Under the pieces are notes generated by a model, which saw nothing but the letters and a program-made list of their open reading frames with translations, made no database searches and had not been told where the DNA came from. A program made the position numbers and the translations under genes. From an uncultured Pelagibacteraceae bacterium (lineage in GTDB: Bacteria > Pseudomonadota > Alphaproteobacteria > Pelagibacterales > Pelagibacteraceae), in NCBI GenBank assembly GCA_913045275.1, contig CAJWPG010000006.1, positions 1-53,058 of the forward strand: a DNA stretch of 53,058 bases, given 5' to 3'. Position 1 is the first letter of the stretch. Each line of letters opens with the position of its first letter. Shown in pieces: positions 23,609 to 26,626 of the stretch.

Positions 23609-24285
23609 TATATATTGCCAAAATTTCTTTTTATTTTTTTAAACTTATCTAGTACATTTTTATAATCTCTTTCATTAAAATCTGGCCACATTTTTTTAAC
23701 AAAAAATATTTCTGAATATGACAGTTGCCATAACAAAAAATTACTAAGTCTATTAGTATTTCCTGTCCTAATTAACAGATCTGGATTTGGAATTCCTTTT
23801 GTGTAAAGAGATTTTGTAACAGAACTTTTGTTAATTTTCATTTTTTTTTCTTTAATTTTTCGTATGGCGTTGACTAATTCATTTTTAGATCCGTAATTTA
23901 ATGCTAAAATTAATAATAATTTTTTATTTTTGTCAGATTTTTTTTGTGCAGATTTTAAACTACTTTGTATTTTTTTTGGAAATTTTTTTAAATCTCCTAT
24001 AATTTTTAATTTGACTCCATTTTTAACTAATTTCTCAATTTTTTCTTTTAGAAAAGATTCTAATAAATTTAACAAAAATTGAATTTCTAGTTTGGGTCTT
24101 TTCCAATTTTCAGTCGAGAAAGCGTATAAAGTTAAATATTTAATATTATTTTTTATCGATGATTTGATAATTTTTTCTACTTTTTTAAGTCCAGTTTTGT
24201 GACCTAAATTTCTTGATTTTTTATTTTTTAAACCCCATCTGCCGTTACCATCCATAATTATGGCTACATGCTTAGGTGAACTCAT
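23608..24285 (-). CDS. uppS: Undecaprenyl diphosphate synthase (isoprenyl transferase)
   Basis: UppS condenses isopentenyl diphosphate units onto farnesyl diphosphate to make the lipid carrier for peptidoglycan and LPS. The 225-residue cis-prenyltransferase has IIMDGNGRWG with the Mg ligand Asp12, GHKTG, YAFSTENWKRP, and RLSNFLLWQLSYSE with Glu192. The usual RT(S/G)GE segment is RTGNT here (residues 173-177), so the conserved Glu is replaced by Thr. It overlaps frr by 4 bp and cdsA by 1 bp. Confidence 0.94.
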   Translation of the reverse strand: MSSPKHVAIIMDGNGRWGLKNKKSRNLGHKTGLKKVEKIIKSSIKNNIKYLTLYAFSTENWKRPKLEIQFLLNLLESFLKEKIEKLVKNGVKLKIIGDLKKFPKKIQSSLKSAQKKSDKNKKLLLILALNYGSKNELVNAIRKIKEKKMKINKSSVTKSLYTKGIPNPDLLIRTGNTNRLSNFLLWQLSYSEIFFVKKMWPDFNERDYKNVLDKFKKIKRNFGNI

Positions 24286-24833
24286 ATTGTCATTATTTCT
24301 TTTTCTTTCGAAATAACTTTTTCATCTATTTGTTTAATATTATTATCAGTAAGATCTTGTATTACCTTTTCATTTATTTTTACATCATCTTCAGATATAT
24401 CTTTATTCTTCAAAAGCTTTTTTAGATCATCATTAGCTTCTCTTCTGATATTTCTAATAGAAATTTTACATTTTTCGCCCATTGATTTAATAATTTTTTT
24501 CATTTCGTTTCTTCGTTCTTCACTTAAATCTGGTACTGGTAATCTTATTAATTGACCATCTATTTGAGGATTTAATCCTAATTCAGATTTTTTTATAGCT
24601 GCATCAATTAAAGAAACGTTATTTAAATCCCAAACTTGGATATTAATAGTCCTTGCTTCTGGTGTTGTTATACTTCCCAATTGATTGATTGGCATTTGTT
24701 GACCGTAAACATCTACTTTTACCAAGTCTAACATACTTACATTAGCTCTTCCTGTTCTTAATGACGATAGTTCCTTAACAAAAACTTCAATTGTTTTTAA
24801 CATTTTATCTTTATAAACACTATCCTTGAACAT
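24282..24833 (-). CDS. frr: Ribosome recycling factor
   Basis: RRF splits post-termination ribosomes together with EF-G. The 183-residue protein has the typical features ELSSLRTGRANVSMLDLVKVD near residue 20, INQLGSITTPEARTINIQVWD, IRLPVPDLSEERRNEM and IRNIRREANDDLKKL. It overlaps tsf by one base and uppS by 4 bp. In most bacteria pyrH (UMP kinase) lies between tsf and frr; here it does not. Confidence 0.97.
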   Translation of the reverse strand: MFKDSVYKDKMLKTIEVFVKELSSLRTGRANVSMLDLVKVDVYGQQMPINQLGSITTPEARTINIQVWDLNNVSLIDAAIKKSELGLNPQIDGQLIRLPVPDLSEERRNEMKKIIKSMGEKCKISIRNIRREANDDLKKLLKNKDISEDDVKINEKVIQDLTDNNIKQIDEKVISKEKEIMTI

Positions 24834-25684
24834 TATTCTCCAATTTTTAATCTAATAAATTCTTTTATCATAATTTCTTTAGTACTTATTTCAGAAATAA
24901 CATCTTTTACTTTTTTCTTAGGTTCCATAACCCAATCTTGTGTCATTAAGCTATTTTCTTCTTTAAATTTATTTATTTTACCTAAACTTATTTTTTTTGC
25001 AATTTCTTCTGGTTTATCTGAATTTTTAAGTTCTTCAGATATCAACTCTTGTTCTTTGTCTATTATTTCTTGTTCTATTTTATCTGATGTTAGAGCTATT
25101 GGATTTGAGGCTGCTATATGCATTGCCAATTGTTTTCCAAATAAATTGATTTTATCAGATTGCTCTTTATTTTCTAAGGATACAATGACTCCTAATTTTG
25201 AAACATTGTTTTTAACTATTGAGTGCTGATATGAGAAATTCCTTGAATTTATATTTTCTATAGTTTTTGTCCTTCCTATTGTTATTTTTTCACCTATTTT
25301 TGCTATCAATGAAACTAGATTTTCATTGACAGTTTTATCATTTTGCATTTTTGTTTTATTTAATTTTTCTATATCTGATGAACATTGATTATTTAACTCA
25401 CTTAATTCTTTTACAAATTTTATAAAATCCTCATTTTTTGCAACAAAATCAGTTTCACAATTAACTTCTAATAATGAAGATTTGTTATCATCACCAGAAA
25501 GTAAAATTACACCTTCTTTAGCATCTCTTGACATTTTTTTTGATGCTTTGGCTATCCCCTTAACTCTTAAATTTTCAACAGCTTTTTCTAAGTTTCCACT
25601 AGATTCTTTGAGAGCTGAATTACAATCTTTATAACCTGCTCCGGTTGATTGTCTTAATTGTTTTATTTTTTCTATATCGCTCAT
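24833..25684 (-). CDS. tsf: Elongation factor Ts
   Basis: EF-Ts recycles EF-Tu by nucleotide exchange. The 283-residue protein has the N-terminal UBA-like domain ([20 protein letters not shown]), the EF-Tu contact motif TDFVAKN (about residue 79), and the C-terminal [17 protein letters not shown] region. Gene order rpsB-tsf is conserved. The gap to rpsB is 29 bp, so cotranscription and shared control by the rpsB leader are likely. Confidence 0.97.
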
Positions 25685-25713: not shown

Positions 25714-26502
25714 TTAATTTATGTTTATTTTTTTTTCAGAAGAAACTTCTTTGGTTTCTTTTTTTATTATTTTATCACTGACTGCATATTTTGATTCTTC
25801 TTTTATTTCTTTTGGAAGATCCTTTTTTGCATTATTAATTGTCTCTAATAATAGATTGCAATATAAATCTATAGATCTTCTAGCATCATCATTGCCAGGT
25901 ATCGGAAAATCAATGCCTTCAGGATTGGAGTTGCTGTCTAAAATAGCTACAATAGGAATTCCCAATTTAATTGATTCTTTAATGGCTAGAGATTCGTAGT
26001 TAGTATCAATTACAAATACAAGATCGGGAATTTTTTTCATTTCTGCAATACCCCCTAAAGATCTTTGCAATTTGTCTCTTTGACTACTCATTTTAAGCAA
26101 TTCTTTTTTTGTAAAGCCTCTGTTTTCTGAAGATAAATCTATATCAATATTTTTTAATTTTTTAATTGAATTAGATATAGTTCCCCAATTAGTAAGCATT
26201 CCTCCTAGCCATCTATAATTAACAAAATATTGATCAGTATTTTTTGCTAGTTCGGCAATTGCTTCGGAAGCTTGTTTTTTTGTGGAAATAAATAATATTT
26301 TTCCACCACTTGTTATTGTTGAGTAAACTTTTTCTAAAGCTACTTTTGTTAGCTCTAAAGTTTGAGTTAAATCTATTATGTGAATTGAATCTCTTTTTCC
26401 AAAAATGTACTTTTTCATTTTTGGATTCCATCTTAAAGTTTTATGTCCTAGATGAACTCCAGCTTCTAATAATTGTTCGATTGTTATATTTGGTATCTTC
26501 AT
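25714..26502 (-). CDS. rpsB: 30S ribosomal protein S2
   Basis: S2 is a late-assembling small-subunit protein needed for S1 binding. I place the start at 26502 because it gives MKIPNITIEQLLEAGVHLGH, the usual S2 N-terminus. An upstream in-frame ATG (26562) would add 20 unrelated residues translated from the structured leader. The 262-residue product shows the S2 motifs GHKTLRWNPKMKKYIFG, YRWLGGMLTNW, LGGIAEMKKIPDLVFVID and GIPIVAILDSN. The C-terminal tail is Lys/Glu-rich. It is the first gene of the minus-strand run that ends at lpxB. Confidence 0.97.
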   Translation of the reverse strand: MKIPNITIEQLLEAGVHLGHKTLRWNPKMKKYIFGKRDSIHIIDLTQTLELTKVALEKVYSTITSGGKILFISTKKQASEAIAELAKNTDQYFVNYRWLGGMLTNWGTISNSIKKLKNIDIDLSSENRGFTKKELLKMSSQRDKLQRSLGGIAEMKKIPDLVFVIDTNYESLAIKESIKLGIPIVAILDSNSNPEGIDFPIPGNDDARRSIDLYCNLLLETINNAKKDLPKEIKEESKYAVSDKIIKKETKEVSSEKKININ

Positions 26503-26570
26503 TTTTTTCCCGGTTATGCCACCACAATTATTTCCACTAAAGGACCGGAGGTATAAAACCATAAATTGTG
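26503..26570 (-). promoter_or_regulatory. rpsB leader RNA, probable cis-regulatory structure for ribosomal protein S2
   Basis: The rpsB 5' region is clearly richer in GC than other gaps here. In the mRNA, CCGGT (26548-26544) can pair with ACCGG (26514-26510), closing a loop just before the start codon. CACAATT (26570-26564) can pair with AATTGTG (26529-26523), which would cross the first stem as a pseudoknot. A structured element preceding the S2 gene has been described in Pelagibacter by comparative genomics, and this location fits it. The pairings are read by eye; control by S2 binding is inference. Confidence 0.65.
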
Positions 26571-26626
26571 TGCGTATTAATTTATATTGCTAGATACAAT
26601 TTTATTAAAAAAAAACAAGTATTTTT

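Follow-up and report, generated by a model that had tools for sequence, protein, structure and literature searches.

The leader of rpsB in a SAR11 genome is very probably a copy of the rpsB motif (RF01815) whose pseudoknot, when closed by ribosomal protein S2, would sit over the 30S loading site and thereby repress rpsB, and tsf by coupling. The leader lies on the minus strand of a 53,058-nt stretch of DNA from an uncultured Pelagibacteraceae bacterium (referred to here as the window). Its sequence, conservation, covariation, and position were observed, and repression by S2 is taken from E. coli; from these we infer S2 binding, the site of binding, and steric blocking in SAR11. The observation of a structured leader is confirmed, and the element is already known, in the very lineage of its first description.

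A sequence-only reading of the window had pointed to two pairings in this leader, CACAATT (26570-26564) with AATTGTG (26529-26523) and CCGGT (26548-26544) with ACCGG (26514-26510), interleaved in A-B-A'-B' order. All four arms were found on the minus strand at exactly these positions, their order is correct, and 7 bases separate the last arm, ACCGG, from the rpsB ATG (26502-26500), as that reading held. Both pairings stood; what it missed were the three outer pairs of P1 and the hairpins P2 and P3 (Table 1). The three outer pairs lie beyond the bulged A of P1 and join 26574-26572 with 26520-26522. By eye, a U-G pair between U26549 and G26509 could be added to the pseudoknot. The second gene of the unit is one that we take to be tsf from the look of its product.

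Table 1. Features of the rpsB leader and the genes that follow it, in window coordinates.
Feature	Position	Strand	Basis
Promoter-like pair: TTGTTT (26618-26613), 16-nt spacer, TATCTA (26596-26591)	26591..26618	-	Conserved spacing
P1 5' arm: CGC, bulged A (26571), CACAATT	26564..26574	-	RF01815 alignment, covariation
P2 hairpin: GGU (26560-26558) with ACC (26552-26550), 3 pairs	26550..26560	-	RF01815 alignment, fold; covariation alignment
J2-3, the pseudoknot 5' strand: CCGGU	26544..26548	-	Alignment, conservation; published as J2-3
P3 hairpin: CC (26543-26542) with GG (26535-26534), 2 pairs	26534..26543	-	Structure in leader alignment
P1 3' arm: AATTGTG then GTG, inside the conserved GUGGNGG box	26520..26529	-	RF01815 alignment, covariation
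Pseudoknot 3' strand: ACCGG, 7 nt before AUG	26510..26514	-	Sequence, conservation
rpsB (ribosomal protein S2), ATG 26502-26500	25714..26502	-	Translation, S2 protein matches
tsf (EF-Ts; presumed name), second gene of the unit	24833..25684	-	Translation

How does this leader relate to the published element? The rpsB motif was first described in 'Cand. Pelagibacter ubique' (Meyer 2009, PMC2704228), which agrees with the statement in the sequence-only reading that a cis-regulatory structure ahead of the S2 gene is known from Pelagibacter. The pairing itself had been offered as that reading's own, but it consists of the published P1 helix and the published pseudoknot, in which J2-3 pairs with the 3' extension and which the authors, in the part of the paper on 'Cand. 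P. ubique', state to be previously unidentified (PMC2704228). The comparison with the published model that had been suggested was run: when every Rfam family was searched for at a relaxed threshold, RF01815 (rpsB) aligned over its full model length to 26493-26574 with 34.0 bits (E 4.8e-5). The window leader shares with the published motif its position directly 5' of rpsB, a long P1 with a bulged A, a three-stem junction carrying P2 and P3 (which may be very short; here three and two pairs), and the five-pair pseudoknot that joins J2-3 to the 3' extension. The neighbor is also shared, as dnaE is listed upstream in P. ubique (table in PMC2704228) and a loose DnaE-type motif was found upstream in 70 of the 75 loci tested. 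No structural difference from RF01815 was found in the window leader; the RF01815 consensus has AGgAgA after the pseudoknot strand, which the window leader does not.

The score of 34.0 bits is below the RF01815 gathering score of 40 bits, and default Rfam annotation therefore misses the leader. At gathering scores, the scan of the window returned two tRNAs and nothing else, and RF00127 (t44) went unmatched between 26300 and 26800 at E up to 10. In the window's own genome (83% complete), a single RF01815 match was present at E up to 10, and it is located before rpsB. When relatives were included, a match at E up to 1 was present in 42 of 101 genomes; the gathering cut-off was passed in none of the 101. 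Genomes with no RF01815 match at the limits used numbered 59 of the 101 and 87 of 241 for the class, and incomplete genomes together with strict filters may explain part of these. We take the sub-threshold score to reflect a limit of the curated cut-off and not a lack of kinship, since SAR11 is where the motif was first described and its structural features are present. On a strict reading, the leader may be called a 'homologue below threshold' of RF01815.

Evidence for the structure comes from related leaders that were chosen through the S2 protein rather than the RNA. Of 570 matches in an S2 protein search, the best 80 were kept; all come from Pelagibacteraceae, Pelagibacterales, or Pelagibacter records, which places the window in SAR11. 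One locus (L105) was excluded as its leader lies off the contig, and the motif precedes the S2 start in all 79 remaining loci. An alignment of 60 SAR11 leaders comprised the window and 59 of these loci; among the 20 loci outside it, 18 have a leader identical to an aligned row, and L081 and L089 do not. In the alignment, 96.2% of cells were paired, compared with 30.8-52.8% when the structure was slid by 1-3 columns. Cells changed on both sides of a pair numbered 40 against a shuffle mean of 11.9, and such changes occurred at five of the ten P1 pairs and one of the five pseudoknot pairs. P2 (96.1% of cells paired) and P3 (95.0%) showed no both-side change in this alignment, and further pair types were no more numerous than in shuffles (13 vs 11.9; 119 of 500 shuffles reach 13). 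The innermost P1 pair was unpaired in 24 of the 60 rows and the second outer P1 pair in 7. One row (L098) is out of register by a single column in J2-3, and this misalignment adds unpaired cells; when read directly, the row pairs.

Across all 79 SAR11 leaders the pseudoknot pairs, as CCGGT/ACCGG in 77 and CCTGT/ACAGG in 2, so the double change within SAR11 is at only one of its five pairs and possibly reflects one event. Among the 62 distinct SAR11 leaders, P1 positions 5-10 are paired in every one, and the pair beside the outermost is formed in 55 and is G-U in 54. Covariation in both helices had been proposed as a check, and double changes were found in P1 as well as in the pseudoknot; covariation thus supports both helices.

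P1 and the pseudoknot extend to other alphaproteobacteria. The Rfam matches were covered in part, by 30 + 30 loci and 80 further stretches, and a further 108 leaders (11 from the genus, family, and order, and 97 outside the order) were compared. The pseudoknot is unbroken in all 108, although its conservation at the class level is biased upward because the model used to find class leaders contains the pseudoknot letters and the 5' strand was identified from its similarity to TCCGGTG. It reads CCGGT/ACCGG in 105 leaders (three were read by eye after the pattern missed them), CTGGT/ACCAG in two other alphaproteobacteria of one genus, and CCGGT/ACTGG, with one G-U, in one. The count of TCCGGTG copies was other than one in 23 class-level leaders, of which 2 were miscounted and do hold it. 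The 30 loci of the 101-genome search were scanned for strand letters only and stand outside the 108. Two weak matches (L148 and L149), in which no leader followed by an rpsB start was seen, look like part of another gene and were dropped before the class counts. In the 97 leaders outside the order, P1 positions 6-11 are paired in 83 to 96, with varied standard pairs exchanged, and the P1 pair beside the outermost is formed in 4 and is usually a mismatch. Four leaders from another family of the order (L143-L146) have GUGGAUG instead of GUGGUGG and an unchanged CCGGT/ACCGG pseudoknot; by eye, their P1 register seems shifted, with CACAGC opposite GCTGTG in three of the four.

The leader had been described as GC-rich, and indeed 26503-26574 has 40.3% GC compared with 26.8% for the window, a content that 4.2% of 72-nt windows equal or exceed. 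When the leader was shuffled with its dinucleotides preserved, perfect interleaved pairing of 5 bp (at least 4 of them GC) with 7 bp arose in 35 of 4000 shuffles. Among 5888 tiles of 72 nt taken from the window, such GC-rich interleaved pairing occurred in 2, and the rpsB leader is one of the two. When GC is not demanded, interleaved pairing is common (253 of 4000 shuffles and 698 of 5888 tiles), and pseudoknot topology alone therefore proves little. The minimum free energy structure of the leader contains P1, P2, and P3; its energy is -12.3 kcal/mol (z = +0.86), and 162 of 200 shuffles fold equally well or better. In other words, the strong support for the structure is the comparative evidence, and folding energy adds none.

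Upstream of P1, TTG and GTA spaced 21-22 nt apart are present in 69 of 79 leaders (the window and 78 loci, with L062 and L105 omitted), compared with a mean of 1.0 and a maximum of 4 in 200 rounds of a mono-shuffle control, a contrast that relatedness inflates. The distance between this pair and P1 varies from 17 to 28 nt. The pair looks like the -35 and -10 elements of a promoter, and it predicts a transcription start near 26584, about ten bases before P1. A start downstream of 26564, which would leave the first arm out of the RNA, was thus not indicated, as the putative promoter lies upstream of that arm. A plain sigma-70 consensus scan gave three sites, which is the chance number, and none of them is at the conserved pair.

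The order rpsB-tsf in the window is the same as in E. coli. Within window 24282-25684, tsf is followed directly by frr, and pyrH (UMP kinase) is absent there, unlike E. coli, in which pyrH follows tsf. In an order-mate (G061), pyrH is located 1.6 kb after the rpsB leader (308 bits). The TIGR02075 cut-off for pyrH was reached in none of 78 family genomes (the window's own and 77 requested at a completeness of at least 85%), and the frames that hold the weak TIGR02075 matches are, at 282-425 aa, too long for pyrH. If pyrH is absent from the family, another enzyme would have to make UDP from UMP; a limited literature search found nothing on this point.

What does the leader do? In E. coli, free S2, helped by S1, represses rpsB-tsf through the leader, and a conserved bulge in the upstream helix is needed for this repression, according to the account of rpsB in PMC10931766. 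The E. coli leader is matched by RF00127 (t44) with 83.5 bits, and RF01815 is not among its matches at E up to 1. This S2 operator and the window leader have in common a P1 with a bulged A and the GUGGNGGCAUAAC box; seven P1 pairs match, and the E. coli box reads GUGGAGGCAUAAC. By eye, the E. coli leader also forms a five-pair pseudoknot, with the strands GGGGT/ACCCC, and it too is followed by rpsB-tsf. The two differ above P1, where the t44 model has a single nested arm with GGGU unpaired whereas the window leader has the P2/P3 junction. They also differ in the distance to the AUG, before which the pseudoknot strand ends at 24 nt in E. coli and at 7 nt in the window. The conserved bulge of the upstream helix is present as A26571, in the same layout as in E. 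coli, and it presumably corresponds to the bulge whose deletion was studied in E. coli.

Because the leader anatomy is shared with E. coli, S2-dependent translational autorepression of rpsB-tsf is most likely at work in SAR11 as well. The earlier suggestion that S2 may bind the leader and exert control was right in kind, as regulation by S2 is reported for E. coli (PMC10931766), and for SAR11 it would hold by analogy. In the proposed mechanism, the leader would adopt a compact P1/P2/P3 three-way junction in which the J2-3 strand is base-paired to the stretch immediately 3' of P1. Free S2 in excess of the need of 30S assembly would then bind the leader (in E. coli, with the help of S1), most likely at the end of P1 that carries the bulged A and the GUGGNGG box. 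Bound S2 would keep the pseudoknot closed, and the closed pseudoknot would physically cover the 30S loading place in SAR11, repressing rpsB and, by coupling, tsf. The closed form would block 30S loading because the 3' strand of the pseudoknot occupies -12 to -8 relative to the AUG (window numbering), usually with no Shine-Dalgarno core in between.

The linker between the pseudoknot strand and the AUG is 6-10 nt long in all 62 distinct SAR11 leaders, and it holds a Shine-Dalgarno core in two of them. By comparison, 76 of the 97 other alphaproteobacterial leaders have a linker of 14-20 nt before the next ATG, and a core is present in 86 of the 97, with the caveat that longer linkers leave more room for a chance core. 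AAGG is retained in the 10-nt linker of L147, a relative that belongs to a different genus of this family. The scarcity of cores is not special to rpsB and may follow the genome, because it is seen throughout the window, where cores precede 9 of 46 ORFs compared with 5 of 46 in a shifted control (starts taken mechanically). It is conceivable, though we hold this tentatively, that the S2 operator of SAR11 has shifted into the ribosome binding site. The 3' strand of the pseudoknot would then occupy the Shine-Dalgarno position, and S2 would act by direct occlusion, unlike in E. coli. Steric blocking is not simply transferable from E. coli, because PMC10931766 places the E. coli ribosome binding site outside the operator and for that reason calls the mechanism unclear. 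An analogy is offered by the mycobacterial rpsO (S15) operator, in which a pseudoknot just upstream of the initiation site is suggested to block ribosome binding (PMC10931766); it involves another protein and another RNA, and the likeness is one of mechanism only.

Other explanations of the leader have to be weighed. The sequence-only reading had allowed either a pseudoknot or two mutually exclusive folds. A switch between P1 and the CCGGU/ACCGG helix is suggested by the interleaving of the two helices and by U26544, for which the pseudoknot and an additional P3 pair compete. However, P1 and the pseudoknot helix have no base in common, both are retained together (the pseudoknot in 79 of 79 leaders and P1 positions 5-10 in 62 of 62 distinct ones), and the published model, as described in PMC2704228, has both together. 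Since the two helices are kept together with double changes, the pseudoknot is favored, and exclusive folds are quite unlikely. It is extremely improbable that the leader is no RNA element and is instead the beginning of a longer S2 coding sequence, which would start 20 codons upstream at an ATG in the same frame (26562). That frame is open in the window, and it is open over 26 codons in 4 of the 79 SAR11 loci. In 73 of the 79, however, an in-frame stop lies within 20 codons before the S2 start (four codons before it in 57 of those), and the sequence changes follow base pairing. Given these stops in the frames of relatives, the ATG at 26562 was rejected as an unlikely S2 start.

A further possibility is that the conserved leader works constitutively in SAR11, as a translation enhancer, an S1 landing site, or an mRNA stabilizer, with no feedback by S2. 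Pseudoknots are described as high-affinity S1 targets in PMC10931766, and help with initiation would be useful, as the window ORFs are mostly without a Shine-Dalgarno core. In addition, a limited literature search found no test of S2 feedback in Alphaproteobacteria. However, the core of the SAR11 leader (the bulge, P1, the GUGGNGG box, and the pseudoknot) is common to the E. coli leader, for which S2 feedback has been demonstrated, and a constitutive role is therefore unlikely. Repression of rpsB by S2 through an RF01815 leader remains the preferred reading.

For SAR11, this means that the rpsB element is hidden by the RF01815 gathering cut-off in the lineage in which it was first described. 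The layout of the SAR11 leader, with its short linker and rare Shine-Dalgarno core, is possibly new. Because the operator and the ribosome site nearly coincide in it and a Shine-Dalgarno core is rare, the SAR11 leader would be a simple place for testing occlusion.
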